From positions 62,001-126,000 of the forward strand of contig NZ_MU078719.1 of assembly GCF_014078545.1 (NCBI RefSeq): a stretch of DNA of 64,000 bases, in the 5' to 3' direction. The position numbers and the translations under genes are program-made. The DNA comes from Nitrosopumilus sp. b1. Its GTDB lineage: Archaea > Thermoproteota > Nitrososphaeria > Nitrososphaerales > Nitrosopumilaceae. A model generated the notes under the pieces. It saw nothing but the letters and a program-made list of their open reading frames with translations. It had not been told where the DNA came from and did no database searches. Of this stretch, positions 26,577 to 41,653 are shown piece after piece (within the stretch, counting starts at the first letter, position 1; each line of letters begins with the position of its first letter).

Positions 26577-26742
26577 ACTCTAGGATATACCCTGACACCA
26601 TTAATACATTTCAATGAACCTTATTAGAAAAGGACACGGACATACCCACAGAGGAGTCATTGGTGTAGAGTCTGCAATAGTTATGATTGCATTTGTGATT
26701 GTAGCAGCAGCTTTGGCCTTTGTAGTTCTCAACATGGGTTTC
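26557..26742 (+). repeat. Archaellin cassette repeat, copy 1 (promoter + N-terminus)
   Basis: 186 bp from the operator to codon 43. It differs from copy 2 (27412-27597) at only three positions, while the rest of the genes is diverged. Confidence 0.85.
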
Positions 26743-27309
26743 GCTACAACACAAAAAGCAAAAACATCCATCATTTCAGGACTAAATGAAGCATCTAGCA
26801 GCTTGGAAATTGCTGGTAAAGTTACTGGTATAGGTAACGTTGTAACAGGACAACTGGAAGTAATTTCTGTACCATTAAAAATCGCTTCTGGTGGTGATTC
26901 AGTTAACTTGCAAAATACAACTGCCAGTGTAAAGTATCTAAGTAATACTGTAGAATATGATAACATATTAGTAGGTACTGCAAGCACATCTACAAACGCT
27001 GCAAATGTCACCGAAGGATGGGAATTAGCTTTGAGACATTTCGGAACAGTTGTACCAGATAATCCAGTCAACGGCACTTGGTCAGGTGCTACAAAAGCAA
27101 TATTCTACTGGACTGTCGGTGCAGGTAATCAAATCTTAGATGAAGGTGAACATGCAGTTTTATCGATTGCATTTGATCAGGCTGGTCCAGATGACAGACC
27201 ATCTGCATTAGATCGAATAAGAGCAGAAATTCTCCTACCAACAGGAGCACCTCTCACAATTGAAAGAGATGTTCCAAGCATTACCAACACTGTTGTAGAT
27301 CTAGGATAG
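26614..27309 (+). CDS. Archaellin 1
   Basis: 231-residue archaellum filament subunit. Class III signal: basic, His-rich pre-sequence ending HRG, probable cleavage G/VIGVESAI by the prepilin peptidase (gene not in window). The hydrophobic helix IVMIAFVIVAAALAFVVLNMG forms the filament core, and residues after about 45 are the exposed beta domain. The ILDEGEHAVLSI motif and C-terminal VVDLG recur in all four paralogues. Leaderless promoter with the motility dyad. Symbol left blank because arlA/arlB numbering cannot be fixed here. Confidence 0.93.
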   Translation: MNLIRKGHGHTHRGVIGVESAIVMIAFVIVAAALAFVVLNMGFATTQKAKTSIISGLNEASSSLEIAGKVTGIGNVVTGQLEVISVPLKIASGGDSVNLQNTTASVKYLSNTVEYDNILVGTASTSTNAANVTEGWELALRHFGTVVPDNPVNGTWSGATKAIFYWTVGAGNQILDEGEHAVLSIAFDQAGPDDRPSALDRIRAEILLPTGAPLTIERDVPSITNTVVDLG

Positions 27310-27315
27310 AAAACC

Positions 27316-27351
27316 GTGATTATGTAAATAATCACTAAATACTATCTTTTT
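27316..27351 (+). terminator. Terminator after archaellin 1
   Basis: Perfect 8-bp stem GTGATTAT/ATAATCAC with loop GTAA, then a six-T tract at 27346-27351. Suggests that archaellin 1 is a one-gene transcript. Confidence 0.65.
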
Positions 27352-27411
27352 TATTTATTCTAAATTCTAAAAAATTCTTTTCACAACTATTGTAACAATA
27401 GAAAACACAAA

Positions 27412-27431
27412 TGTCCGATCATCTCGAACAC
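27412..27431 (+). promoter_or_regulatory. Motility dyad, archaellin 2 promoter
   Basis: TGTCCG-ATCATCTC-GAACAC, 6 nt, GGATAT, 25 nt, ATG at 27469. Confidence 0.75.
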
Positions 27432-27597
27432 ACTCTAGGATATACCCTGATACCATCAATACATTTCAATGAACCTTATTAGAAAAGGACACGGACATAC
27501 CCACAGAGGAGTCATTGGTGTAGAGTCTGCAATAGTTATGATTGCATTTGTAATTGTAGCAGCAGCTTTGGCCTTTGTAGTTCTCAACATGGGTTTC
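27412..27597 (+). repeat. Archaellin cassette repeat, copy 2
   Basis: Differs from copy 4 (29862-30047) at a single position; identity with copy 4 continues about 35 bp further into the gene. Confidence 0.85.
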
Positions 27598-28191
27598 TCC
27601 ACAACACAAAAAGCCAAAACCACAATCATATCTGGTTTAAGTGAAGCATCTAGCAGCTTAGAAGTTGCAGGTAAAGTAATGGGAATAGCTTGTACAGAAA
27701 CAGCACAAGGTTGCTCAACTCCCTATCTTAATGCAACAGGAATTCCCCTTAGAATTGCTTCCGGTGGTGATGCAGTAAATCTTGAGGAATCTTACACTCA
27801 GGTAAAATATCTCAGTAACTCTATTGAGTATGATGATATCTATATTGGAGCAATAACAACTGCTACTGCCTCAAGTTTAGAAGGTGGTTTTGATGCTGGT
27901 ATTACAGCATTATCAGAATTGGTTGCAGGACAAAATCCAGTTGATGGTGGATTAACCACTGGAACATACGCTTTCACATACTGGAGTGTTTCTAGAGGAA
28001 CTCAAAATGCAATCCTAGATGAGGGTGAACATGCAGTTTTGGCAATTGGATGGGACAGTGATGAATCAACTGAAGAACGACCAACCTCTCTTGATAAAAT
28101 GAGAGTAGAAGTTATTCTTGCAACTGGTGCATCTCTAACTGTTGAAAGAGATATTCCAACACTGACACACCTAGTAACCGATCTTGGTTAG
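27469..28191 (+). CDS. Archaellin 2
   Basis: 240-residue paralogue with the same His-rich class III signal and core helix. The exposed domain is diverged and has a Cys pair (IACTETAQGCS) that could form a disulfide in the filament surface. Own promoter and own terminator-like hairpin, so transcription is probably independent of its neighbours. Confidence 0.93.
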   Translation: MNLIRKGHGHTHRGVIGVESAIVMIAFVIVAAALAFVVLNMGFSTTQKAKTTIISGLSEASSSLEVAGKVMGIACTETAQGCSTPYLNATGIPLRIASGGDAVNLEESYTQVKYLSNSIEYDDIYIGAITTATASSLEGGFDAGITALSELVAGQNPVDGGLTTGTYAFTYWSVSRGTQNAILDEGEHAVLAIGWDSDESTEERPTSLDKMRVEVILATGASLTVERDIPTLTHLVTDLG

Positions 28192-28212
28192 GTAATTCAA
28201 TTACCTTTTTTT
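28191..28212 (+). terminator. Terminator after archaellin 2
   Basis: Inverted repeat GGTAA/TTACC starting at the stop codon, followed by seven T. Confidence 0.6.
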
Positions 28213-28274
28213 ATTTTTCTTATACGCATTCTATATTATTTTGATTTATTTTACACTCTCGATTTTTTCAAAAA

Positions 28275-28294
28275 TGTCTGTTCAAGTAGTACAT
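28275..28294 (+). promoter_or_regulatory. Motility dyad, archaellin 3 promoter
   Basis: TGTCTG-TTCAAGTA-GTACAT, 6 nt, GGATAT (28301-28306), 25 nt, ATG. The flanking DNA is unlike the other archaellin promoters, so the matching bases are conserved by function rather than by recent copying. Confidence 0.75.
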
Positions 28295-28331
28295 ACAACA
28301 GGATATACTCATACTTGATAATTATATTTCA

Positions 28332-28460
28332 ATGAAACTTGTTAGAAAAGGACACGGACATACCCACAGAGGAGTCATTGGTGTAGAGTCTGCAATAGTT
28401 ATGATTGCATTTGTAATTGTAGCAGCAGCTTTGGCCTTTGTAGTTCTCAACATGGGTTTC
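28332..28460 (+). repeat. Archaellin cassette repeat, copy 3 (coding part only)
   Basis: The first 43 codons match the other copies almost base for base, but the promoter DNA does not. Confidence 0.8.
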
Positions 28461-29015
28461 TCAACTACTCAACGAGCAAAGACTGCAATCATTGCAAGTC
28501 TTGAAGAGGCATCCAGCAGCTTAGAAATTGCAGGTAAAGTTACTGGTTCTGGAGACGTTACTGCTTCATTGATGAATGTTACTGCAGTACCTCTAAAAAT
28601 TGCTTCAGGTGGTGATTCTGTAAATATGAATCTACAATTAACAGCTGTAAAGTATCTAAGTAATTCCATTGAATATGATAATATATACAATGGAACATTA
28701 CAAACAGGTAACTACGTTAACCTAACACAAGCTATGCAAGTTGCTGTAAGCCAAAGTTTACTACGAAGCAATCCTGTCAATGATACTGCTAATCCAGGAC
28801 AAACAACTTCAATCTTATACTGGGCTGTCAACAGAAATAATAATTTCATCATTGATCAAGGTGAACATGCTATAATGGCTATAGTCCATGGTGCTGACGA
28901 AAGACCAGGACCTCTTGATACCATAAGAGCAGAGATTATTGTCCCAACAGGTGCTCCATTGACAATTGAGAGATTAGTTCCAAATGTAACACATGATGTT
29001 GTAGACCTAGGATAG
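28332..29015 (+). CDS. Archaellin 3
   Basis: 227-residue paralogue beginning MKLVRKGHGHTHRG. Same processing site and core helix; diverged exposed domain without Cys. Ends in VVDLG. Followed by a hairpin and T run. Confidence 0.93.
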   Translation: MKLVRKGHGHTHRGVIGVESAIVMIAFVIVAAALAFVVLNMGFSTTQRAKTAIIASLEEASSSLEIAGKVTGSGDVTASLMNVTAVPLKIASGGDSVNMNLQLTAVKYLSNSIEYDNIYNGTLQTGNYVNLTQAMQVAVSQSLLRSNPVNDTANPGQTTSILYWAVNRNNNFIIDQGEHAIMAIVHGADERPGPLDTIRAEIIVPTGAPLTIERLVPNVTHDVVDLG

Positions 29016-29034
29016 GAGCAACACTCCTTTTTCT
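29015..29034 (+). terminator. Terminator after archaellin 3
   Basis: Stem AGGAG/CTCCT with loop CAACA directly after the stop, then a T-rich tract. Confidence 0.6.
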
Positions 29035-29097
29035 TGCTTTTTCAAAATTTCAAACTGAACATAACTTTGTTTTTATTATGAAATACCAAAGCTAATT

Positions 29098-29847
29098 ATG
29101 AATTCACACCTAAATGCCATAATTCTTAGTATTACTATTACCATGTTTATTGGAATTATTTTCATTAGCATAAACTCTGAAAATAAAGTGGTATCGTACT
29201 CTGAGAATTCAAAAAAAGATGTAATGTTTGAGACTAAATATCATAAAAATTATGAGGAATTAAAGGCCAGTGAAAATACTGTCGTTATCTACCCAATTTT
29301 CACCCAAAGTGCCTATGAATGGGGAGGAATTCATGATTTTTACCAAAACAGATGTGCCGAATGTACTAGTACAGAAATTCAGCCATTCTTTGAGAAGCGT
29401 TATGCATCAAGCGGTACTGCATTTTCAGTCTTGGAATTTCTGGGATATAACATAATAAATGACATTGATCTTGATAAAAATCCTGATATTCTAAGCCAAT
29501 TTGAGAAGGTTATCTTACTCCATAATGAGTACGTCACTGAAAATGAGTTTAATGCAATTACTACTCATCCAAATGTTATCTATCTCTATCCAAATTCACT
29601 AAGTTCTCGAATATCAGTTGATTATGAATCTAATGTCATGACTCTTCAACAAGGACCTGGTTTCCCTGATAGTAACATAAAAAATGGATTTGATTGGGAG
29701 TTTGATAACTCTCAATTCATGAGTGATTGGGACTGTAATGGTTATGAGTTTTACAAAATTGATAATGGATACATGTTGAATTGCTATCCAGAAAAAATTC
29801 TGCAAAATAATGGAATTGAAATTTTAAAAAGAATTAAAGAACTATAG
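29098..29847 (+). CDS. Membrane-anchored protein of unknown function inside the archaellin cluster, 249 aa
   Basis: N-terminal membrane helix (about 8-27), then an extracytoplasmic domain with strands such as VVIYPIFTQSAYEW and VILLHNEYVTENEFNAITTHPNVIYLYPN, and Cys residues (RCAECTS; DWDC, LNCYP). The pattern weakly recalls N,N-dimethylformamidase-like/thaumarchaeal surface proteins, but I do not assign a function. It separates archaellins 3 and 4. Only a half dyad (GAACAT, 29057-29062) is visible upstream. Confidence 0.65.
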   Translation: MNSHLNAIILSITITMFIGIIFISINSENKVVSYSENSKKDVMFETKYHKNYEELKASENTVVIYPIFTQSAYEWGGIHDFYQNRCAECTSTEIQPFFEKRYASSGTAFSVLEFLGYNIINDIDLDKNPDILSQFEKVILLHNEYVTENEFNAITTHPNVIYLYPNSLSSRISVDYESNVMTLQQGPGFPDSNIKNGFDWEFDNSQFMSDWDCNGYEFYKIDNGYMLNCYPEKILQNNGIEILKRIKEL

Positions 29848-29861
29848 GTTCAAATTTTTCA

Positions 29862-29881
29862 TGTCCGATCATCTCGAACAC
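29862..29881 (+). promoter_or_regulatory. Motility dyad, archaellin 4 promoter
   Basis: TGTCCG-ATCATCTC-GAACAC, 6 nt, GGATAT, 25 nt, ATG at 29919. Drives archaellin 4 and probably the downstream motor genes. Confidence 0.75.
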
Positions 29882-30047
29882 ACTCTAGGATATACCCTGA
29901 TACCATCAATACATTTCAATGAACCTTATTAGAAAAGGACACGGACATACCCACAGAGGAGTCATTGGTGTAGAGTCTGCAATAGTTATGATTGCATTTG
30001 TAATTGTCGCAGCAGCTTTGGCCTTTGTAGTTCTCAACATGGGTTTC
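29862..30047 (+). repeat. Archaellin cassette repeat, copy 4
   Basis: One mismatch to copy 2 over 186 bp. Confidence 0.85.
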
Positions 30048-30638
30048 TCCACAACACAAAAAGCCAAAACCACAATCATATCAAGTCTTGGTGAAGCATC
30101 TAGCAGCTTAGAAGTTGCAGGTAAAGTAATTGGATCAGGACATATAACTGATGCAAAACTAAACGTCACTGCTGTACCTCTAAAAATAGCTAGTGGTGGT
30201 GAATCAGTTAATCTGGCACCAGGAACTGCATCAGTAAAGTATCTTAGTAACTCTATCACATATGATGATATCTACCAAGATACATTAACTGTCAACACAG
30301 ACGGAGATGGCGATCCAAACGACAATGGTGAATGGTATCAATTACGTGAAGCAGTTGATGATGCTGCAACCGCAGGATATTGTACAAATGATCCATATGA
30401 CACTGCTGGTGATAATCCAAATGAGACATGTGCATTCATCTATTGGACTGTAAACAGTAACAATAACGACATCTTAGATCAAGGTGAACATGCAGTATTG
30501 GCAATCGTATATGCAAAGAATGATAGACCATCTGCATTAGATACTATCAGAGCAGAAATCATCTTGCCAACTGGTGCATCATTGACCATAGAACGACAAG
30601 TACCATCAATTACAACTTCAGTGGTGGATCTCGGATAG
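29919..30638 (+). CDS. Archaellin 4
   Basis: 239-residue paralogue. Its exposed domain has an Asp/Asn-rich loop (DGDGDPNDNGE, about residue 127) like a calcium-binding EF-hand/dockerin loop, and two Cys about 18 residues apart (GYCTN, ETCAF). The N-terminus and promoter are nearly identical to archaellin 2. It is closest to the motor genes and has no terminator of its own, so it is probably the head of the arlX-G-F transcript. Confidence 0.93.
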   Translation: MNLIRKGHGHTHRGVIGVESAIVMIAFVIVAAALAFVVLNMGFSTTQKAKTTIISSLGEASSSLEVAGKVIGSGHITDAKLNVTAVPLKIASGGESVNLAPGTASVKYLSNSITYDDIYQDTLTVNTDGDGDPNDNGEWYQLREAVDDAATAGYCTNDPYDTAGDNPNETCAFIYWTVNSNNNDILDQGEHAVLAIVYAKNDRPSALDTIRAEIILPTGASLTIERQVPSITTSVVDLG

Positions 30639-30644
30639 AAATAA

Positions 30645-30666
30645 GGAGTGATAAAATGCACACTCC
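30645..30666 (+). promoter_or_regulatory. Hairpin masking the arlX ribosome binding site, followed by a U-rich tract
   Basis: GGAGTG (30645-30650) pairs with CACTCC (30661-30666). The stem contains the Shine-Dalgarno sequence and the ten-base loop contains the ATG of the next gene. A T-rich run follows within its first codons. Likely limits read-through or translation of motor genes relative to archaellin. Confidence 0.5.
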
Positions 30667-31954
30667 AAGCATTTCTTTTTCTTTTTCTTTTCTAAACAAC
30701 CTAACGCAAAGTTTTAGAATTTTTCTTGTAACAAGTATAGCCGGAACTTATACTCTAGTTCTCTATGAGCTATTTCCAGAATTTTTGTTTAACCCAAATT
30801 ATTCCCTGACATACTTTGTTGCACCTGTTGCAGCAATAGCTGGTGTACTGATTGGATTACCAAAGTTCATGAATCGTGGAATGAAAACAGCTAAACCAAA
30901 GGCAAAAAAGACTGAGAACAAGTCAGGTGAGGACTTGCTTAATGAAATTATTGGCGGAGACGATTCCGGTGAATCAACCCAACAAGGAGTGCAGCAGGAT
31001 TCTACAGGCGTGATGGCTGGAAACTCTGAAGGCGTAACACTAGAGCCTGCATCAGTCGGCGGACCAAATGCTGAACTTGATGCCTTGCTAGGAGGCGGAG
31101 AATCAAATTCAAGTACTGTATCTGCAGATATAGTCACCTCAGGTGGCTCCATCTCTGGATTAAACGAGGATACCATACGAGACATGATTGACCAAAAATT
31201 CGAGCCAGTCGAAAAGGATCTCTCTTCCTTCAAAAAAGACCTAAACAAGATCAAAGAAGACATGAAGATTACTAAAGAAAACGTTGATAGCTTGACTGAA
31301 TCCTTTGAGGGAACACTAACTGACATGAAGGCATTTCAGGCCGAAATTGCAAATCCTCTAAACTTTATGAGAAAATACTTTGAATCAATCGATCTCAAGA
31401 ATCTATCAGACCCATCCTTGCCGTTACGACAACAAAACCGAGCGCCAGAACAAACAGTATCACAAGCCCCTATACCACAACCTGCATCTCAGGCACCAGT
31501 ATCTGTACCCCAACCTGCACCTGTTCCTGCACCAGTTACAGAACAAGCATCACAGATTTCCCCACAGGTAAAACCAAAGACAACTGAGATGGAGAGTATC
31601 GAAAAAGGAACAGACCTTGATAACCCTATGGACTCTGTCATGAAGCCACTATTTTCTGGTACACTTAGCGTTAGCAATCTAATGTCAATAGTGGAGCTAG
31701 CTGGTGAGATGCTAAAAGAAAACGGTGATGACTGTATTGATCTATTAATTGAGCAGTGCAAGCTCATGGGACTAAAAGACGAAGACGAAAATACAATTTA
31801 TAATATAATCGACATGCTCAAAAAATCTGGCATGAATGTAGAGGATACCCTAATTCAGCTATACAAGTTTGCAAAAATAGTTGGAATCAATGACAAACAG
31901 GCAGATGCTCATTACAAAAAATTACTAGAATCAAGAGACGAGGAGGATGATTAA
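30656..31954 (+). CDS. Putative archaellum cytosolic-ring/scaffold protein (ArlX/ArlCDE-like)
   Basis: 432 residues: two N-terminal membrane helices (about 20-36 and 50-68), a low-complexity linker, a coiled coil (about 180-230, ending AEIANPLNFMRKYFES), a Pro/Gln-rich linker (about 260-305) and a helical C-terminal domain (about 320-432). By position between archaellins and arlG-F, and by its membrane plus coiled-coil layout, it corresponds to crenarchaeal ArlX or euryarchaeal ArlC/D/E, the ring around ArlH/ArlI. The C-terminal domain may be the docking site for chemotaxis proteins. Family membership is inferred, not certain. Confidence 0.55.
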   Translation: MHTPSISFSFSFLNNLTQSFRIFLVTSIAGTYTLVLYELFPEFLFNPNYSLTYFVAPVAAIAGVLIGLPKFMNRGMKTAKPKAKKTENKSGEDLLNEIIGGDDSGESTQQGVQQDSTGVMAGNSEGVTLEPASVGGPNAELDALLGGGESNSSTVSADIVTSGGSISGLNEDTIRDMIDQKFEPVEKDLSSFKKDLNKIKEDMKITKENVDSLTESFEGTLTDMKAFQAEIANPLNFMRKYFESIDLKNLSDPSLPLRQQNRAPEQTVSQAPIPQPASQAPVSVPQPAPVPAPVTEQASQISPQVKPKTTEMESIEKGTDLDNPMDSVMKPLFSGTLSVSNLMSIVELAGEMLKENGDDCIDLLIEQCKLMGLKDEDENTIYNIIDMLKKSGMNVEDTLIQLYKFAKIVGINDKQADAHYKKLLESRDEEDD

Positions 31955-32434
31955 ATGGCATCAGGACTAATTGGTGAGGCAATTCTAATTATCGCATCAG
32001 TTATTGTTGCAGGCTCTGTTGCAGGGGTGGTACTGTCCCAGATTGGTGTCTTTGAGTCTTCCATCACACAAACATCAGAAGCTCAAAAGGATAAGTTATT
32101 AACAAAAATCAAGATTATCTATGTTGCAAACTCTACAGATAATGATGCTGAAGTCTGGGTGAAAAACATTGGTAAAAACCCTATCACTAGTCTTGATAAA
32201 ATTGATGTATACTTTGGTCCAGTGAATGCAGTACAAAGATTTGCATACACCGTTGGTGATGTTGATGAAACTTGGGAGATCAACGGTGGAATTCCAAGTC
32301 CTGCAGTATGGCAACAGATGGATACCTTGGAGCTACAACTAGATGAGGACAGCTTGGCAAAATCCACAACATATGAGGTACGAGTGATTACTCCACAGGG
32401 CGTTTCTGATGAGTATATTTTTTCAATTCCTTAA
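31955..32434 (+). CDS. arlG: Archaellum stator protein ArlG
   Basis: 159 residues: N-terminal membrane helix (ILIIASVIVAGSVAGVVLSQIG) and an extracytoplasmic beta-sandwich (IKIIYVANSTDNDAEVWVKNIGKNPI, ... YEVRVITPQGVSDEYIFSIP), as in ArlG (FlaG). With ArlF it forms the stator that binds the S-layer. It begins one base after the arlX stop, with GAGGAGG as ribosome binding site. Confidence 0.85.
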   Translation: MASGLIGEAILIIASVIVAGSVAGVVLSQIGVFESSITQTSEAQKDKLLTKIKIIYVANSTDNDAEVWVKNIGKNPITSLDKIDVYFGPVNAVQRFAYTVGDVDETWEINGGIPSPAVWQQMDTLELQLDEDSLAKSTTYEVRVITPQGVSDEYIFSIP

Positions 32435-32452: not shown

Positions 32453-32968
32453 TTGGGACTAAGTAATGCAATATCAGGTGGAATTATCATGGTTGCACTA
32501 ATCGCAGTCTTATTGACCGTACCAGGGATAGTGGGTACTACTTCAGTAGTACAGGATGCATCTACAGATATTTCTGAGATTGAAACAAAAATTTACAATA
32601 CTGGAATAGCTGTATCCTCACTTTCTAGCTCAGCCGATTCTGCACTTGTCACTTTCACTGTAAGCAACCCTGGCAGTGAGAAACTATGGGATTTTGCAAA
32701 TTTTGATCTATTCATTACGTACAATGGTACATCATCAGGTTTACGAACCGAACAGCTAACATACTCTGGAACGTGTTCAGGTGATCCATCTGCTGGAAAC
32801 TGGTGTATCAATTCGTTTACAAATGATCTGCTTGATCCAAGCATACTGAATCAGGGTGAGGCTATGAATTTGCGTAGTACTTTATCTGAGAATACCGATA
32901 CTGGTTTGGTTGCTGTAATTATCTCTACAAATAACGGTGTATCAACATCAAAGTCCACAACAAACTAA
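32453..32968 (+). CDS. arlF: Archaellum stator protein ArlF
   Basis: 171 residues: N-terminal helix (SGGIIMVALIAVLLTVPGIVG) and beta-sandwich with the typical ALVTFTVSNPGSEKLWDFANFDLFITY strand pair and LDPSILNQGEA. ArlF (FlaF) binds the S-layer and caps ArlG. TTG start. One Cys pair (GTCSG, NWCIN). It converges with a giant relative on the other strand. Confidence 0.85.
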   Translation: MGLSNAISGGIIMVALIAVLLTVPGIVGTTSVVQDASTDISEIETKIYNTGIAVSSLSSSADSALVTFTVSNPGSEKLWDFANFDLFITYNGTSSGLRTEQLTYSGTCSGDPSAGNWCINSFTNDLLDPSILNQGEAMNLRSTLSENTDTGLVAVIISTNNGVSTSKSTTN

Positions 32969-32991: not shown

Positions 32992-35193
32992 TTAGACCGT
33001 GATTGAATCACTTGTAACTTTTCCACTATCACTTATCACTGTAGCTTGGAAAAATCCACCTGTAACTGGTGGGTATGGGAGTCTACCAATCACTTCAGCA
33101 GATTCTCCAGGGTTTAGTATTCTTGGATCCAAACCGTCATCTCCAATGCCCCTGATTCCCCATTCGTTTGCATCACCAGTGAATAATGTAATTACAAATT
33201 CTGCCCATGACCAATCTATTTGGTTTCCGGTAACCACATACCTGACTCTCAAATCTGTATAGTTTGTAATAGAGTCCGCCTGGGTTGTAGAAAGAGTTCT
33301 TGTCTTTTGAACAAAGGGTTCTGTTCCAATGACGTTTTCTTCGTTCCATGAGGCTATAACGGTCTCCCCTTGTCTTAGCTGCACCGTTAGCGTTGTAATG
33401 GGAACCTCATGCCAAGCAAACATGAATGGTTCTCTATCATTAGATGATGATAGGGAATTCTCTAATGCGGTGCCTAGGGCTGACCAACTCGAACCATTCC
33501 AAACCCTGTGAAACAGATCACTGTTGGAGTCTGAATATAGCGCCATCATCCTATTAGATAATGGATCTGCCCTCAACTGGAGAAATCTAATATCGTTAGT
33601 ACTTCCAGTCTCAGTTGTTACCGAGCTAAAACCGCTGGCATCAGACCAAGTTCTCCACGATAATTGCTGCTTGTTTGCATCCGTTGCAAATGAAAACAAT
33701 GCATCCCCAGTACTTTTCTCAAAATCCACGCTAATTCCCCTATTGTCACTAACCCCTGCTATACTTGCAGGGCGAGTTTCCCATACGCTTCCATCCCAAG
33801 CACCAAATTCCAACTCATTATCACGCTGAAGCATTCCTACTGCAATCTCTGATGAGTCAGATTCCGGATTGTATCCTGCTGAAACCCATCTTACATCATC
33901 ATTTAGTAATGTATACGCTATAGCTTCTGTGTTCCAGCTCGTGGTAAATTCCTGATAGTAGAGTTGTTTATTATTATCTCCCCATATCAAAAATGCATCA
34001 CCTGATGCCCTCTCAAATGCAATGTCAAAACATTGATAATCTCTATCATGAGGTGCCGTTGCAGTAGTAGTTTGATTGTCCCAAGCATTTGAAGAATTCC
34101 ATCGCATTGCATGAAGTAGTGTATCATCTGTTAGTATCCCAACAAAAATCTCATTAGAATCTGGTTTGCTTTTAGCAACAACCCACTTGGGTAATTCACC
34201 AACAGCAAAAACAGTACCTGCATTTCCGTTTGAAGCATCCCAGATTCCACTGACTCTCTTCCTAAACTTTAACTGGTTTGAGCCGTCACCAAACACTACT
34301 ATGACATCATTTGATTGATCCTCGTAAGCAATATCAAATACCCTGGTGTCACTAGCTGCTAGGTTTGTAGTCCAATTTGTAGTCCAAACTGCACCATTCC
34401 ATGTCTGTACGGTTAGCAAATTTGTTGTAACAGAAATTGTTGCCATTACTTTCTCAGTAGTTGCTGGAGATGCCTTTACAACTGCCCACTGAATGTTATT
34501 GATTATTGGCGCACTCGAATCTGCCTCAGAACCAAAACTACTACCATCATATTCACGATACTTTGGGAATAAGGCTGCCAGCTCCCCATACCCCAAAATC
34601 CCTTTGTTATCGTCAAGTGGAGGGGCTTGGTACGTATAACGAAGAAGGTGCCCATAACCAGATTCGGGGTCTGTTATACCGCTTAGCTCAACTTCAACGT
34701 CGTTGGTAGGTGTTCCTGTCGAACCAGGTGATGAGATATAATCTGCATCACTTCTCGTGGATTCATCTATCTTTTGATACAGGGGTGTTGCAGTCCAACC
34801 TCCAGTTCTGTTATCTGCTATTGGTCTTGCGACATCCGGATCTGAATCCCCATAAAAGGAATCTGGTTCTGAAAATGTAAAGACCTCACTTAATCTTGTT
34901 GTAGTGCCACCAACGTCAGCATCATACGTAATTATAAAACTAAAATCTTCATAATTCCAGATCCTCTCTGAACCCCCATTTGTAAGATAAAATGTGAACA
35001 GATCATTCCCTGCCTCTGCTGTAAGACTAGAAATCTGCAGAAGAGTCTTTCCAAAAATGTTTTGAGCTTTATTGATGTCAGTTTTTGCATCACTAATTTC
35101 GATTATTTCTTCACCATTACCAACTATTACTATAATTGCAAAAAAAGCAACGGTAACAGATATGCTACCAGCTATGGCAATTCCTAAACCCAT
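32992..35193 (-). CDS. Giant ArlF-like protein with an inserted beta-propeller, 733 aa
   Basis: The N-terminus matches ArlF: membrane helix (about 4-27), then DLFTFYLTNGGSERIWNYEDFSFIITY. The C-terminus also matches ArlF: LDPRILNPGESAEV and a final strand ending SKVTSD-like. Between them lie about 550 extra residues, including four to five repeats (about 215-590) of a WxVAKxxPxSNEIxVGIL / FDIAYExxSGDAxxxWGD / W-N-G-S-x-W pattern, i.e. propeller-like blades. It sits opposite to the motor genes between arlF and arlH. Probably a surface protein anchored like ArlF; role in the stator or in S-layer binding is inferred. Confidence 0.7.
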   Translation of the reverse strand: MGLGIAIAGSISVTVAFFAIIVIVGNGEEIIEISDAKTDINKAQNIFGKTLLQISSLTAEAGNDLFTFYLTNGGSERIWNYEDFSFIITYDADVGGTTTRLSEVFTFSEPDSFYGDSDPDVARPIADNRTGGWTATPLYQKIDESTRSDADYISSPGSTGTPTNDVEVELSGITDPESGYGHLLRYTYQAPPLDDNKGILGYGELAALFPKYREYDGSSFGSEADSSAPIINNIQWAVVKASPATTEKVMATISVTTNLLTVQTWNGAVWTTNWTTNLAASDTRVFDIAYEDQSNDVIVVFGDGSNQLKFRKRVSGIWDASNGNAGTVFAVGELPKWVVAKSKPDSNEIFVGILTDDTLLHAMRWNSSNAWDNQTTTATAPHDRDYQCFDIAFERASGDAFLIWGDNNKQLYYQEFTTSWNTEAIAYTLLNDDVRWVSAGYNPESDSSEIAVGMLQRDNELEFGAWDGSVWETRPASIAGVSDNRGISVDFEKSTGDALFSFATDANKQQLSWRTWSDASGFSSVTTETGSTNDIRFLQLRADPLSNRMMALYSDSNSDLFHRVWNGSSWSALGTALENSLSSSNDREPFMFAWHEVPITTLTVQLRQGETVIASWNEENVIGTEPFVQKTRTLSTTQADSITNYTDLRVRYVVTGNQIDWSWAEFVITLFTGDANEWGIRGIGDDGLDPRILNPGESAEVIGRLPYPPVTGGFFQATVISDSGKVTSDSITV

Positions 35194-35302
35194 TTGATAT
35201 CATTATACCTTGAATTAACAAATCAAATCACATCGCCTGTCCGATTCGTACAAGCTTAGAATGACACAACCCTAAAGATTCGTTCAAAAAAGCCAAACAG
35301 TA

Positions 35303-35312
35303 TCTTATATCG
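35303..35312 (+). promoter_or_regulatory. TATA box for the arlH leader ORF
   Basis: TCTTATATCG centred about 27 nt before GTG 35334. A weak right half site (AAACAG, 35295-35300) of the motility dyad lies just before it. The 199-bp gap also contains a partial TGTCCGATTCG element near 35239. Confidence 0.4.
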
Positions 35313-35333
35313 ATTTTCCCACTCAATCCTGTT

Positions 35334-35396
35334 GTGATAGTAATGGATCTAGATTGTATAATTTGTAATTTAAAGAATGGATGTGACGATACATGA
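35334..35396 (+). CDS. Leaderless mini-ORF (20 aa, CxxC) overlapping arlH
   Basis: Begins GTG at the expected transcription start (internal ATG at 35343) and ends in TGA sharing bases with the arlH ATG (ATGA). The product contains DCIICNLKNGCDD, three Cys including a CxxC. It may be a leader peptide coupling translation to arlH. Coding is not proven. Confidence 0.35.
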   Translation: MIVMDLDCIICNLKNGCDDT

Positions 35397-36094
35397 CGCA
35401 GATTATTCCATGTGGAAACGAAGAAGTAGATAGGGCCATAGGCGGTGGAGTGCCATTTCCTTGTTTGATGATTCTTGAGGGTGGACATGGAACAGGAAAG
35501 AGTGCAATGACTGCACAATTCATGAAAGGAATTTTAGATGCCAAAAAAAATGTTTTGTGTATCACAGAAAACACTGTCAAAGAATACATCGAGAACATGA
35601 AGTCTATTACATTTAATTTCTCTAATGCATTTTTACAAAACAGACTAACCATTCTTCCTCTTCACATGTATGGTGTAAAATGGACAAAGGAGCAATCCGC
35701 ATTTCTTTTACCAGTTATAGGAAAATACATTGGAAACAGCTTTAAGGAAACAAACTGTGTTGTAATTGATTCACTAACTTTACTTACTGTCTTTGCAGAT
35801 GCCAGCCAGATCCTAGACTTTTTCACACAATGCAAGTATCTCGTTGCAAATGGAATGTCCGTTATTATCACAACTCATCCCGATGATATTCCAGCTGATA
35901 TTGCACAAAGGGTCAAGGGAAGTGTCGACTGTTACTTGCAGCTAGGCTCAACAAACGTTGCAGGAAAGGACGTCAAGACTCTAAAAGTTATCAAGCTAAT
36001 AGGTTCAAAAGACGCATCAGAATCCGGCTTTGCCTTTGAGGTTGATATGACATTTGGAATAAAGATCGTACCAATCTCAATGGCAAACGCTTGA
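35393..36094 (+). CDS. arlH: Archaellum motor regulator ArlH
   Basis: 233-residue RecA/KaiC-like ATP-binding protein that sits on ArlI and switches assembly to rotation. P-loop GGHGTGKS at about 30-37, Walker B NCVVIDSLTLL near 122. The ATG overlaps the stop of the leader ORF. Start of the arlH-I-J run; own promoter, separate from the archaellin/arlX transcript. Confidence 0.93.
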   Translation: MTQIIPCGNEEVDRAIGGGVPFPCLMILEGGHGTGKSAMTAQFMKGILDAKKNVLCITENTVKEYIENMKSITFNFSNAFLQNRLTILPLHMYGVKWTKEQSAFLLPVIGKYIGNSFKETNCVVIDSLTLLTVFADASQILDFFTQCKYLVANGMSVIITTHPDDIPADIAQRVKGSVDCYLQLGSTNVAGKDVKTLKVIKLIGSKDASESGFAFEVDMTFGIKIVPISMANA

Positions 36095-36126: not shown

Positions 36127-37800
36127 ATGGCATTTGATTTCTCTCAAGTTAAGGACAAAAATTTCTCTGAAGTTCTAAAAAAGACGCCACATCTTTTGGA
36201 TTACATCGACAGCTACTCTGCTAGGGGAAACCCACTACCACTCTTTACAGATACACTAAAGCCTGAACACAAAAAACTGAAAGAGCCAAACCTGATGTAT
36301 CCAATATCAGAGCAGGCATTTATTCACATTAATCCACATACTACTTCAGATGATGGATACCTCGAGTATGTCATAATAGAGCCTCCGCCACCAGAAAGAA
36401 AACTAATGGAGATGGCAGACAAGCTGTTTGCAGTCCAATCCGGTTCCTTGGATCCCCCAGTTGAGATTACAGAGCGATTCAACATGGTTGAAAATTACCT
36501 TGACAAGGCAGTATCTGTCCAAGATGGTCCAGTAGATTATGAAAAAGTCGGTGATGTTTACAAGCTAAAGACACTACCAGTTGAAAAGAGCAAGTGGAAT
36601 TCTCTAAAGTATCACTTTTTACAAAAACGTGCGGGAACTGGTCTATTAGATCCGTTTCTCTCTGATCCAAACCTTGAAGATATCTCAATTATTGGTGCAG
36701 GAAACGTTTACGTCATTCACAAGTCCTTTGGAGCACTAAAGTCTCCATTATTCTTAGGTGTTGAAGAAATTGATGAGCTTATCATCAGCATGTCAGAGCA
36801 ATTTGGAAAGACCGTGTCCCATGCAAAACCTGTTGTAGACTCTGTGTTGCCTGATGGCTCCAGAATTAACATTGTGTTTGGAAAAGACATCAGCAGAAAG
36901 GGAACAAATGCCACAATCAGAAAGTTTGCAAGTACGCCACTATCCATTATTCAAGTACTTACATCAAAGGCACTTGACTTTAGAGAGGCAGCATACATGT
37001 GGATGATGCTCAGTGAAGGAATGAGTGTCTTTATCAACGGAGAAACTGCATCAGGTAAAACTACGACTCTGATGGCACTTACTGCATTTATCCCATCAAA
37101 CTGGAAAGTAGTAACAATTGAAGATACACCAGAACTTACACTGCCACATTCTAACTGGATTACAGAAGCTACCCGTGACACTGGTAGTCCTTCATCCAGT
37201 GTGACAATGTTTGACTTGTTAAAGGCTGCCTTGAGACAGAGGCCTAACTATATCCTGGTCGGAGAAATTAGAGGCGCAGAAGGCAACATTGCGTTTCAAG
37301 CCATGCAGACAGGTCACCCTGTAATCAGTACATTCCACGCAGCAAACATGGTTGCACTGATTCAAAGACTTTCAAATGATCCAATCAACATTCCAAAGAC
37401 TCACATGGAGAACCTAAACATTGCACTGTTCCAAGGTGCAGTGCAGGGACCAGGTGGCAAAAGAGTAAGACGTGTTCTATCAATTAATGAGATCCTTGGG
37501 TATAATCCCGATGGTGGAAACATCATGTTCATTCCTTCATTCTCATGGGATCCTGGAACAGACGAGGTAAAATTCAAGGGAAAAGGAAGCAGTGCACTAT
37601 TCATATCTCATGTTTTGCACAAACGAGGAATGTCAAGAAAAGATGAGGGAAAACTTTACGATGAGCTAGAACTTCGAGCAAAAATTTTGGAGCGAATGAT
37701 GGAAAAGAAGATCTTCAACTATTATGACGTCTTTGATTCTATTTCACACTGTAGAGAAATCGGACTTGAAGCATTCTACAAGGAGCTTGACACTCTATAA
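36127..37800 (+). CDS. arlI: Archaellum motor ATPase ArlI
   Basis: 557-residue type IV secretion ATPase driving filament assembly and rotation. Walker A GETASGKTTT at about 305-314, Asp box and Walker B ILVGEIRG near 377, His box TGHPVISTFHA. A long N-terminal domain precedes the core, as is normal for ArlI. Good ribosome binding site (GGAGGAG) ahead of the ATG. Its stop overlaps the arlJ ATG by one base. Confidence 0.95.
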   Translation: MAFDFSQVKDKNFSEVLKKTPHLLDYIDSYSARGNPLPLFTDTLKPEHKKLKEPNLMYPISEQAFIHINPHTTSDDGYLEYVIIEPPPPERKLMEMADKLFAVQSGSLDPPVEITERFNMVENYLDKAVSVQDGPVDYEKVGDVYKLKTLPVEKSKWNSLKYHFLQKRAGTGLLDPFLSDPNLEDISIIGAGNVYVIHKSFGALKSPLFLGVEEIDELIISMSEQFGKTVSHAKPVVDSVLPDGSRINIVFGKDISRKGTNATIRKFASTPLSIIQVLTSKALDFREAAYMWMMLSEGMSVFINGETASGKTTTLMALTAFIPSNWKVVTIEDTPELTLPHSNWITEATRDTGSPSSSVTMFDLLKAALRQRPNYILVGEIRGAEGNIAFQAMQTGHPVISTFHAANMVALIQRLSNDPINIPKTHMENLNIALFQGAVQGPGGKRVRRVLSINEILGYNPDGGNIMFIPSFSWDPGTDEVKFKGKGSSALFISHVLHKRGMSRKDEGKLYDELELRAKILERMMEKKIFNYYDVFDSISHCREIGLEAFYKELDTL

Positions 37801-39296
37801 TGGAGCTAGCAAAATTTCCCCTGATTAACAAACTTGCAACAGGTGGTGGCGCAGAAGCAATTGATGAAAAGTTTGTCTACTTTATGGCGTTTCTCTACTC
37901 CATCTCAACTGGTGAGGTAGAATCTGTAGATATGATAAAGACTGCATCAAAGAGTGGATACGGAAAGTTCTCTCAAGCATTCATGGACACGTTTCGTCTT
38001 GGTGTGGGGTGGTCATACGGCTTATCAAAATCCCTTGAGATGATTGCAAACAAGGTTGCACAAAATAATGAGATTCAATTAAAGCAAATCCTAGTCAAAC
38101 TTGCACAGGTAGTAAGGCTAGGTGATGATCTAAAGACATTCTTTCATGCTGAAGTAAAGTCAGCCATTATGAACTTTGAAATAATTTATGAACGAAAGCT
38201 AGAGACTCAGAAACTCTTCTTGGAGATGTTCTATACCTTAATGTCTACTGCAGCCTTTATGGTATCTGCAAACTCTATCATGACAATGTTGATGGGCTCA
38301 AATGATGCCGAAGACATTCTGTTATCGTCATTAATTGGAGTATCTATCAGCATGACTGTCTTTGTATTTTTGATGTACATGATGTTCCCTAGAGACAAGC
38401 TTGCATATGCAACAGCAGATGATGATCTAAAGTTTAGACTACGTGTATACATGATGGCAGGAGTCGGTGCAGGAATTGGGATTGTCTTATTCATGATTCC
38501 TGATTTTCCTAATACTCTGGCGGTAGGTGCTGCAGTTGCACCACTAATCATTCCGGGATTAAAGGCAAAGAAGATGGAGTCTCAGATAAAGGAGCTAAAC
38601 CAAGCCTATCCGGAATTTATAAGACACTTTGGAGAAATTTATGCTACAGTAGGTTCAATGGGTCAGGCACTTGATGCTGTACTACGAAGTGACTTTGGAC
38701 CACTACAAAAACATGTAATCGGATTTAAGAACAGAATCAAAAACAGAATTGATCAAAAGTTAGGCTTTGAGTTATTGTCCAGAGATGCGGGAAGCGAAAT
38801 CATTGCCAATGGAAACCAAGTGATATCCACTGCAATGGATAAGGGTGGTGACATGAATGAGACAGGAAACGTTGTTGCAGATATCACACTAAAGATGAAT
38901 GAGCTTCGTGCAAAGAGATCTCAGACTGCTAAAACATTTGAGACAGTTGTAGTGGTACTTCATATCTTGACACTTGCAGTATTTGGACTCATGAACAAAT
39001 TAACTGAGATATTCTTTGAGCTAATCAACACAGTTGATGTATCAAACAGCACATTCCAATTAACCCCAATTGATCCAGAATTTATGGCAGCAATGATGCC
39101 TGTAATGATTATCATGACATCAGTTCTAAGCGCAGTAGCAATCAAAGTTGCACAAGGAGGATTGTACAAGACAGTATTTTACAACATTGCAATACTTGCA
39201 GTACTTGGTGCCATAGTATCATTTGTGATGAACTTTATGCTGGCTGACTTTCTTGAGACCCACATTCTTGACTTTGTGGATGAGACTGTCCCGTAA
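37800..39296 (+). CDS. arlJ: Archaellum membrane platform protein ArlJ
   Basis: 498 residues, two GspF-like cytoplasmic domains and about seven to nine membrane helices (first pair near 147-200, then 220-260, last group 385-490). It is the integral platform on which ArlI acts. The TAATG overlap with arlI indicates coupled translation. Last structural archaellum gene; the prepilin peptidase gene is not in the window. Confidence 0.93.
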   Translation: MELAKFPLINKLATGGGAEAIDEKFVYFMAFLYSISTGEVESVDMIKTASKSGYGKFSQAFMDTFRLGVGWSYGLSKSLEMIANKVAQNNEIQLKQILVKLAQVVRLGDDLKTFFHAEVKSAIMNFEIIYERKLETQKLFLEMFYTLMSTAAFMVSANSIMTMLMGSNDAEDILLSSLIGVSISMTVFVFLMYMMFPRDKLAYATADDDLKFRLRVYMMAGVGAGIGIVLFMIPDFPNTLAVGAAVAPLIIPGLKAKKMESQIKELNQAYPEFIRHFGEIYATVGSMGQALDAVLRSDFGPLQKHVIGFKNRIKNRIDQKLGFELLSRDAGSEIIANGNQVISTAMDKGGDMNETGNVVADITLKMNELRAKRSQTAKTFETVVVVLHILTLAVFGLMNKLTEIFFELINTVDVSNSTFQLTPIDPEFMAAMMPVMIIMTSVLSAVAIKVAQGGLYKTVFYNIAILAVLGAIVSFVMNFMLADFLETHILDFVDETVP

Positions 39297-39367: not shown

Positions 39368-40501
39368 GTGGATTCTATACAGAAAACTACCACTGAAGAA
39401 AAAATCACTATAGACTCACTGGATGAGAATATTGATGAGAGTCCAAATTCTGAGACAAAGAATACATCACTTGATAGAGTTATTGAGATTACAAAGCTGA
39501 TGAGTCATGATACTGAAAAGGCACTTGACACAATAAACACCATAAACAAAAAAACAGAATTTTTAGCAATTAATGCATTAATTGAAGCAAGCAGAACAGG
39601 TGATGCTGGAAAAGGATTTCAAGTCGTTGCTGAATCAATTGATGTTTTAGCTACAAAAACAAAAGAGGCAGTAGAAAAGATGCGAAAAGAGACAATCTCA
39701 AAGATGAGTGAGCTTGGAAAAATTATTGAAGAGCAATCAGTAAACATTACAGGAAATAGATTAGCAGATCTTGCATTAACAAACATTGATTTAATTGATA
39801 GAAATCTCTATGAAAGAACAGCCGATGTTAGGTGGTGGGCTACAGATAACATCTTTGGAATTGCATTGCTGAGTAAAACCAAAGAATCCATTCAAGAAGC
39901 GCAACATAGACTGGGTACAATTCTAAAATCCTATACTGTATACTATGATCTTGTTCTAGTTGATCTTGAAGGAAATGTTATTACAAATGCCCAAGCCGAC
40001 AAATTTGATATCTCAAACCAAAACTTTGCCTCAAAACAATGGTTTCAAACTGCATTAAAGACTTCAAATGGTAGTGAATACGGATTCCAATCTGTTCATA
40101 GATCATCAACTAGTGGATCCCACACCATGACATTTTCCTGCAAGGTACATGAAAATGGTGATCCAAACAGGCCAGCAATAGGTGTGTTGGCCGCCGTATT
40201 CAACTGGGATGGTTTGGCCCAGCAAGTAGTAAATGGAACTCCAATTAACCAAGATGAAAAGGAAAAAACCCGTGTTTGTATAGTTGATGAAAATGGTACA
40301 ATTCTTGCAGATACCCAAAATAGAATCCTTGATAAATTTAGCATTCCTAAAATGAATGATTTATTCGCTAAAAAACAGGGATTCGTAAAAATATCCCAAA
40401 GGGGAGAAGAACAACTAGTCTGCCATGGGTTATCTCATGGATATGAGACGTATGCCTCTGGATGGCATTCTGTAATAATACAGGATATATCAAATAACTA
40501 A
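39368..40501 (+). CDS. Soluble chemoreceptor with short MCP hairpin and C-terminal Cache domain (1)
   Basis: 377 residues, no membrane segment. Residues about 30-125 are a short version of the MCP signalling hairpin (FLAINALIEASRTGDAGKGFQVVAE), followed by a linker ([28 protein letters not shown]) and a Cache-type sensor domain (about 155-375). The domain order is inverted compared with a normal MCP, and the sensor would be in the cytoplasm. It probably senses an internal signal through CheA/CheW. GTG start at the regulon spacing. Confidence 0.75.
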   Translation: MDSIQKTTTEEKITIDSLDENIDESPNSETKNTSLDRVIEITKLMSHDTEKALDTINTINKKTEFLAINALIEASRTGDAGKGFQVVAESIDVLATKTKEAVEKMRKETISKMSELGKIIEEQSVNITGNRLADLALTNIDLIDRNLYERTADVRWWATDNIFGIALLSKTKESIQEAQHRLGTILKSYTVYYDLVLVDLEGNVITNAQADKFDISNQNFASKQWFQTALKTSNGSEYGFQSVHRSSTSGSHTMTFSCKVHENGDPNRPAIGVLAAVFNWDGLAQQVVNGTPINQDEKEKTRVCIVDENGTILADTQNRILDKFSIPKMNDLFAKKQGFVKISQRGEEQLVCHGLSHGYETYASGWHSVIIQDISNN

Positions 40502-40585: not shown

Positions 40586-41653
40586 GTGCAAAAATCAGTA
40601 TATGAAAACTCTAAGAATGTTACTTTGGAAAGCATATCCAAGCTTGTAAACACAATGTCAAGCGAGATGGATAATGCTATTAAAAAAATTCAAGACATTA
40701 ATGAAGAGACACACATTTTGGCACTTAATGCAGCAATTGAAGCAAGCAGTGCTGGTGATGCAGGAAAAGGATTTGGTGTTGTAGCAGAACACATGGGTGA
40801 GCTATCAAATGAAACTGCAAGAATCACAAAAAAAATGAATAACAACAGTCAAACAAATATTGTAGAGCTTGAAGAAATTCTTACAACTCAAGCAGCTAGT
40901 GTACGAGGCAATAGACTTGCAAATCTTGCATTAACAAACATTGATCTAATTGATAGAAATCTCTATGAGCGAACAGCCGATGTTAGGTGGTGGGCTACAG
41001 AAAAAAGTGTAGTTAATGCACTAACTGATAAAACTCCTGAAGCAATAAATTTTGTATCAGGACGTCTAAATACAATTTTAAAGTATTATTCAATTTATCA
41101 TGACTTAATTCTAGCAGATGCAGATGGAAACATTATCGCAAATGGCAATCCACAGTTTAATCTAAAGGGACGAAATATTTCTGAAAGACCATGGTTCAAA
41201 AATGCAATAAAGACTAAAAATGGTGATGAATTTGGCTTTGAATCTGTTCATAACTCGCCTCCAATAAATAATCAAAATATTATTACTTTCTCTTGTAAAG
41301 TTCACTCAAATGGAGATACCAATCAACCATTCATTGGAGTGCTGGGAACTGTCTTTAACTGGACAGGATTGGCTCAAAAAATTGTCAATGATACGACAAT
41401 CAATGAAGATGATAAACCACGTACACGTGTGTGTATAGTCAATAAGGAAGGAATAGTTTTTGCTGATACTCAAAATAAAATTCTTGAAGATCGAATACAA
41501 TTTGATGGATTAGACGAAGTCTTTAAGATGAAAAAAAATTTTATCACTAAAAAAATTGATGGTAAAACATTCTGTATGGGTCATGCCATCTCTCCTGGAT
41601 TTGAGGGATATTCAACAGGCTGGCATTCTTTAATTATTCAAGAGATGGCTTAA
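40586..41653 (+). CDS. Soluble chemoreceptor with short MCP hairpin and C-terminal Cache domain (2)
   Basis: 355-residue paralogue of the preceding gene with a more canonical hairpin tip ([25 protein letters not shown]). The linker [15 protein letters not shown] is conserved almost at DNA level between the two, while the ligand regions of the Cache domains differ, so they probably sense different molecules. No membrane helix. GTG start. Confidence 0.75.

Follow-up and report, generated by a model that had tools for sequence, protein, structure and literature searches.

The window, by which we mean the whole 64,000-nucleotide stretch of Nitrosopumilus sp. b1 that was analyzed, carries an archaellum (arl) gene cluster. 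Its forward-strand genes include a fused arlCDE-like gene (30656-31954, +; named by synteny, from its conserved position in arl clusters), arlG (31955-32434, +; NCBIfam ArlG, E 5e-13; PF01917, 62.5 bits), and a canonical arlF with a TTG start and a product of 171 aa (32453-32968, +), and further on arlH (35393-36094, +; KaiC-like, PF06745, 63.2 bits), arlI (36127-37800, +; recognized by synteny and conservation), and arlJ (37800-39296, +; recognized by arl synteny and an ArlJ search), the last of which was used as the archaellum marker in the genome census described below. The canonical arlF product matches PF22201 at 31.2 bits and the NCBIfam ArlF model at E 2e-7, below the cut-off of the latter, and a profile of thaumarchaeal ArlF matches the FlaF structure PDB 4p94 (E 5.9e-11). 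Upstream lie four archaellin genes (26614-30638) whose 5' ends are near-identical over some 300-400 bp, both within and between the two species compared here, while their 3' parts have diverged in a pattern that looks like gene conversion. The archaellin gene cluster also holds a gene (29098-29847, +) whose 249-aa product has a hydrophobic segment at its N-terminus and draws just one weak, sub-threshold match from Pfam; in other Nitrosopumilaceae (loci L049, L050, L062, and L074), its relatives are likewise located within archaellin clusters or close by. Downstream of arlJ, two adjoining genes (39368-40501 and 40586-41653, both +) encode proteins with an N-terminal partial MCP signaling hairpin followed by dCache_1; both proteins lack a hydrophobic segment (maximum 19-residue hydropathy 1.2) and appear to be soluble and chemoreceptor-like, with their domains in the reverse order.

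The subject of this analysis is the gene that separates arlF from arlH, a complete open reading frame of 733 codons (P0001; 32992-35193, -) for a modular protein of the ArlF family, recognized by its reading frame, a Pfam match, and shuffle tests. An open frame of this length would arise by chance with a log10 P of about -23 given the base composition of the window. The gene runs on the strand opposite to the arl operon: it converges with arlF, the two stops being 23 bp apart, and diverges from arlH, from which 199 bp separate it. It thus splits the cluster into arlB(x4)-arlCDE-arlG-arlF and arlH-arlI-arlJ, in exact agreement with the first-pass annotation, which had placed it opposite to and between arlF and arlH. 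The intergenic region common to this divergent gene and arlH (35194-35392) is about 98% conserved in a sister species and presumably has a promoter role. An assembly artefact was ruled out by the single uninterrupted reading frame and by the presence of an equivalent gene at the same place in the sister species; a decaying copy of ArlF was likewise dismissed, as both halves are conserved and inserted forms are intact in several species.

The two ends of the 733-aa protein jointly span the neighboring ArlF from end to end and in order. The first half of the core (residues 1-108; 34870-35193, -) aligns with ArlF at a Smith-Waterman score of 153 (z 20) and the second half (residues 673-733 plus stop; 32992-33177, -) at a score of 70 over residues 674-733 (z 10), with none of 300 shuffled sequences scoring as high in either case, while in the same kind of test the propeller described below showed no similarity to ArlF (z 1.3). 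PF22201 (FlaF_Ig-like) matches residues 62-114 at 31.5 bits (cut-off 28.4). W79, F84, and Y90 are conserved in the first half and W678, D686, P690, N694, and E697 in the second, and aligning 16 ArlF-type proteins shows the same conserved W, Y, D, and E columns to both sides of the insert. These scores uphold the initial proposals that both ends align with the adjacent ArlF and that a single ArlF-like sequence has been split by a propeller. The N-terminal hydrophobic helix (residues 1-25; 35119-35193, -) is also of ArlF type: hydropathy reaches 2.6, the structural model places a helix at residues 3-23, and the region aligns with the ArlF segment MGLSxAISGGI. The N-terminus (MGLGIAIAGSIS...) lacks a charged leader, and judged by eye it has no obvious class III signal-peptide site of the kind cut by prepilin peptidase.

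In several respects, the protein departs from an ordinary ArlF. Its core is interrupted at residue ~108 by 565 residues and does not form the single domain of ~110 residues in a protein of ~170 aa; its gene is not co-directional with the operon and is the second ArlF-type gene in the genome. The NCBIfam ArlF equivalog (cut-off 110 bits) gives no match to the 733-aa protein, a result to be read beside the mere 31.3 bits that the same model gives to the neighboring canonical ArlF. With a canonical ArlF intact next to it, the 733-aa protein is a paralog and not a substitute for the stator protein.

The insert of ~565 residues consists of two nested pieces, a propeller of ~405 residues and a beta-rich domain on both of its flanks, so that the order along the protein is helix, ArlF half, spacer half, propeller, rest of the spacer, ArlF half. 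The beta-rich spacer comprises residues 109-195 (34609-34869, -; pLDDT 29-57) and 603-672 (33178-33387, -), both delimited by alignment with proteins of the Nitrosotenuis genus. Six such proteins, of 356 to 358 aa, align with residues 1-190 and 600-733 and are missing just the propeller; as carrier and spacer occur together there without it, the propeller is most readily understood as a payload that was added. It extends over approximately residues 196-602 (33388-34608, -), as defined by blade z-scores, the model, and Foldseek and VIA comparisons, and contains seven clear blades of ~50 residues each (residues 236-589). The blades alternate between type A, with the pattern WVxxKxxPxSxEIxVGI...WNGSxW (236-285, 337-388, 436-486, and 537-589), and type B, with FDIAYExxSGDAxxxWGD...QLxY (286-336, 389-435, and 487-536). 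Pairs of the same type align at z 5-11, save three diverged pairs (0.4, 2.3, and 2.3), and pairs of unlike type score mostly near background, two of them reaching z 3.3 and 3.8. The two ends of the propeller may contribute strands that close an eighth blade. The initial reading of a propeller-like insert of ~550 residues with four to five repeats is supported as to the fold, and the repeats are real, but it needs correction on their extent and number: part of the insert is a second domain, and the unit noted was a double repeat of two blades.

Structure prediction of the 733-aa protein with AlphaFold2 was based on an alignment of 12 sequences in which the propeller part had no relatives, and the resulting model has a mean pLDDT of 57. 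It is best at the ArlF halves (pLDDT 71-90 for residues 51-110 and 73-93 for 691-733), middling over the propeller (46-69 for most 10-residue blocks), and poor over the first part of the spacer; folding the propeller by itself without an alignment gave a worse result (mean pLDDT 41.6). Since both ends are its best-predicted part, the model agrees indirectly with the single ArlF-like sandwich that the initial annotation had asked of a structure prediction. The top Foldseek rows against the PDB are PLL2, FleA, PLL5, AOL, PLL4, and PHL (E from 4.5e-8, target TM 0.51-0.64), all of them propellers that bind sugars; the PLL and PHL proteins come from Photorhabdus, and FleA and AOL are fucose lectins of fungi. 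VIA likewise favored the PLL family (Z 20.7-21.7 over 301-309 residues; other propellers listed, 18-19.8), the best match being to a PLL lectin (Z 21.7, rmsd 4.3 over 306 residues, in a region of the model where pLDDT is mostly 46-69). The absence of ArlF from the rows shown for the whole model results from propellers filling that list and says nothing against an ArlF-type core. By sequence, a profile of the propeller retrieved no PLL chain from all PDB sequences at E up to 1. The PLL/PHL lectins of Photorhabdus are seven-bladed propellers built of W-motifs (PMC6943638), with four strands to a blade; they resemble the predicted propeller of about seven blades in their WNGSxW-like repeats and as its best structural match, and differ in sequence (~10-15% identity, no profile match), whereas the 733-aa protein is membrane-anchored and has two alternating blade types. 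With a model of modest confidence and a fold as widespread as the propeller, "lectin-like" is a lead and not a result; the propeller is probably sugar-binding.

Within the genus, the payload was compared between two genomes, one per species. DNA of the window and of the sister species (G051) matches in one block at 89.7% up to base 32968, the stop of arlF, and the match resumes at 35167, 27 bases inside the 5' end of the modular gene, at 95.5%; between these two points no DNA similarity was detectable. In bins of 150 bases, identity is 86-99% to the left of arlF and 93-100% to the right of the modular gene, drops within arlF, and lies at 37-49%, the level of alignment noise, across most of the modular gene. 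The sister genome encodes at the same position a 793-aa protein in which the ArlF core is kept (36% identity over residues 1-123 and 51% over 33 C-terminal residues) and the insert is unrelated to the propeller insert of the window. Residues 257-452 of that insert (gene at L049 8623-11004, -) match the phage minor tail protein family PHROG 2106 (E 7.8e-12). Modules of the sister insert recur in frames of 2218 and 2559 aa in the two genomes compared and in one of 4736 aa outside them, giant surface proteins that carry SLTENLG-type repeats, and giant proteins of a similar kind in other genera contain the window propeller; with payload modules present in both ArlF carriers and giant surface proteins, the modules appear to move between them. 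One further protein (L063 1-1464, -) joins the same type of propeller to a pilin-like N-terminus, with a basic leader and then a hydrophobic stretch, and has no ArlF core, representing a second filament-type carrier for the propeller. The idea that the gene is cargo of a mobile element was rejected, since the ends of the replacement coincide with gene boundaries (the matches sought were to phage and viral sequences).

Such a sharp allelic replacement in an otherwise conserved cluster might be expected of a variable decoy or receptor that is exchanged since viruses or competitors target it, and the phage tail protein match in the sister insert points the same way. However, adhesins are equally expected to show exchange, the propeller has no match among phage records or IMG/VR contigs, and a comparison of two genomes of the genus gives no within-population view of diversity; we consider a virus-driven origin of the variation highly improbable. 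The unrelated insert in the sister species fits a role in variable adhesion or recognition better than a conserved part of the stator, and it is toward such surface recognition at the archaellum or S-layer that we lean.

The distribution of modular ArlF proteins was surveyed in 400 genomes of the order, with ArlJ as the archaellum marker. ArlJ was found in 66 of these and the ArlF profile in 60. ArlF-core proteins with inserted or appended domains occur in 13 genomes, every one of which has ArlJ (hypergeometric P 2e-11, a value that overstates the co-occurrence because the genomes concerned are related, and so not independent, and because an archaellum gene served as the query). The link to the archaellum is thus partly built in, as the search asks for an ArlF core among related genomes. 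Inserts are present in the window genome, in the sister genome, and in seven genomes of the Nitrosotenuis genus, the copy in G251 being split into two frames. Nitrosopumilus sp. LS_AOA encodes an ArlF-core protein of 864 aa with two DUF2341 and two Laminin_G_3 domains; its operon (L050 4990-9143) has three arlF-type genes, one canonical, one for the 864-aa protein, and one for a 126-aa protein without the N-terminal helix, with the 864-aa gene lying between two arlF copies. ArlF is joined to a PKD domain in two genomes (G108 and G120), away from arl, and the sole ArlF of G110 is a 317-aa protein with an extra C-terminal domain, showing that ArlF tolerates added domains. A match in G126 was rejected and left out of the census, being to the spacer domain alone (residues 122-195 and 601-652). 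Nitrosopumilus sp. HM_N (G153; loci L101 and L102) gave no ArlI or ArlJ match and has a solitary arlF. Stop codons and shifts of frame interrupt the modular gene in this genome, as would be seen if it had decayed once the archaellum was lost, or if the assembly were faulty. The initial annotation had named wide occurrence in genomes without an archaellum as an argument against its proposal, and the distribution runs the other way: ArlJ in 13/13 genomes against 66/400 overall, with the copy in the ArlI/ArlJ-less genome broken.

Beyond the order, a phylum-wide Pfam search found ArlF matches nearly all in frames of 163-212 aa, the exceptions being two open frames of 263 and 301, with a model that is weak for the group. 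Searched against GTDB genome contigs, the whole protein gave no close relatives as a single sequence, and an alignment recovered them; viral contigs held no match to either the carrier or the propeller. Tree building from the ArlF cores placed the inserted forms and the LS_AOA protein outside the canonical ArlF group (94/95 support) and the PKD and G110 forms inside it; the window protein sits on a long branch, its exact neighbor unsure, and the long branches also leave the inner order unsure. The tree suggests an old line of insert-bearing paralogs, with other additions made later and separately.

The genomic setting invites the view that the protein is a reinforced anchor, joining the ArlG/ArlF stator and gripping the S-layer glycans of its own cell through the propeller, such that the motor is held more firmly. 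Capping of ArlG filaments and binding of the S-layer are both ascribed to ArlF (PMC8667602), the gene lies between arlF and arlH, the modular ArlF of LS_AOA is flanked by arlF copies inside the arl operon, and the single 317-aa ArlF of G110 functions as a precedent for a tolerated extra domain. Nevertheless, canonical ArlF is present beside the inserted forms, most archaellated relatives have no modular form, and an unrelated insert in a sister with nearly identical arl machinery is unexpected unless the S-layer glycans differ too; we regard a reinforced anchor as unlikely. Conversely, the protein might be an envelope adhesin that borrowed the ArlF anchor, is separately regulated, and retains no tie to the archaellum. 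Its strand is opposite to that of the arl operon, the 357-aa Nitrosotenuis genes lie outside the arl cluster, the tree sets inserted forms apart from canonical ArlF, and the propeller also occurs on non-ArlF proteins. Against this, all 13 cases are in archaellated genomes, the only copy in an ArlI/ArlJ-less genome is broken, and the gene is inside the arl cluster in both species of the window genus, so that an adhesin wholly unlinked from the archaellum ranks just after the anchor as an improbable account. In three Nitrosotenuis-genus genomes (L042, L044, and L046), the 357-aa modular gene and a lone archaellin gene adjoin each other at a distance from the arl cluster. The placement of the 357-aa genes outside that cluster weighs against a role at the archaellum, with which the carrier may have parted.

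Exchangeable surface recognition, the explanation we favor as somewhat the more probable, would work as follows. The ArlF-type N-terminal membrane helix and beta-sandwich would serve as a carrier in the cell envelope, either next to the archaellum base or as part of it; the spacer domain would sit in a loop of the sandwich and hold the lectin-like propeller outward, at or through the S-layer; and the propeller would most likely bind glycans, on surfaces, on other cells, or on the S-layer, providing adhesion or recognition at the archaellum and S-layer. The payload would be exchangeable, as in the sister species, where a carrier of this kind bears a different one at the corresponding locus. An ArlF-type carrier would place the payload at the envelope, the payload types (lectin-like propeller, laminin-G, DUF2341, and PKD) and their sharing with giant surface proteins speak for binding and adhesion, and replacement between close relatives speaks for a changing partner. 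Together, these three lines lead us to prefer surface recognition over the reinforced anchor, the unlinked adhesin, and the viral decoy. The original suggestion of a new stator, S-layer, or adhesion element is thus supported in part: adhesion accords better with the payload swap than a conserved stator part does, and the suggestion is qualified by the canonical ArlF intact alongside and by a propeller module that is not archaellum-specific. More tentatively, and with less conviction than for the reading above, it can be proposed that in ammonia-oxidizing archaea ArlF has been turned into a display scaffold, with paralogs bearing interchangeable and locally hypervariable adhesin or lectin payloads in the sandwich, such that the envelope anchor of the rotary motor would also serve in surface sensing or adhesion, with a specificity that changes from species to species through gene exchange.

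ArlF has so far been treated as a plain S-layer anchor. If the favored reading is correct, motor-anchor proteins have been reused to display changeable surface-binding domains, as the payload swap in the sister species suggests, and modular ArlF would offer both a natural tool for locating ArlF in the envelope and a suggestion of how ammonia-oxidizing archaea couple motility genes to surface recognition. No description of a modular ArlF was found in the literature searched, which most subscription papers lay outside; within that literature the set of modular ArlF paralogs is previously unreported, while the modular-pilin principle itself is known from bacteria.

Compared with known systems, the 733-aa protein is closest to ArlF itself (FlaF; PDB 4p94 family, PF22201), with which it shares the N-terminal hydrophobic helix, the location in the arl cluster, and a soluble core whose halves are both present and keep the conserved W, F, Y, D, P, N, and E positions; it differs in having 733 instead of ~170 aa, a 565-residue insert in the core, a gene on the opposite strand, and a canonical ArlF to which it is extra. 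ArlF is held to bind the S-layer and to cap ArlG filaments, as described for Sulfolobus, and is stated to be secreted at full length (PMC8667602); an earlier archaeal census counted a single copy each of FlaF (ArlF) and FlaG for every archaellum (PMC4858521). PilY1-type and DUF2341 pilus adhesins likewise place an adhesive payload on a type IV filament machine, DUF2341 having been named as a domain of pilus adhesins (PMC4858521), and the LS_AOA relative combines DUF2341 with laminin-G; here, however, the carrier is ArlF itself, and by Pfam the 733-aa protein has neither DUF2341 nor a PilY1-type propeller. Bacterial modular type IV pilins such as PilB and PilC of Streptococcus sanguinis share with it the combination of a small carrier and a bulky grafted module. 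They are well described and bear a great variety of modules, lectin modules included (PMC8179133, PMC9934059), and in GspK the module is inserted into the pilin sheet itself (cited in PMC8179133). Unlike these, the carrier here belongs to the ArlF stator family of the archaellum and is not a class III pilin, and the insert is doubly nested. If the favored reading holds, the archaellum too would follow the modular-pilin principle, with ArlF paralogs as carriers of exchangeable, adhesin-like payloads.
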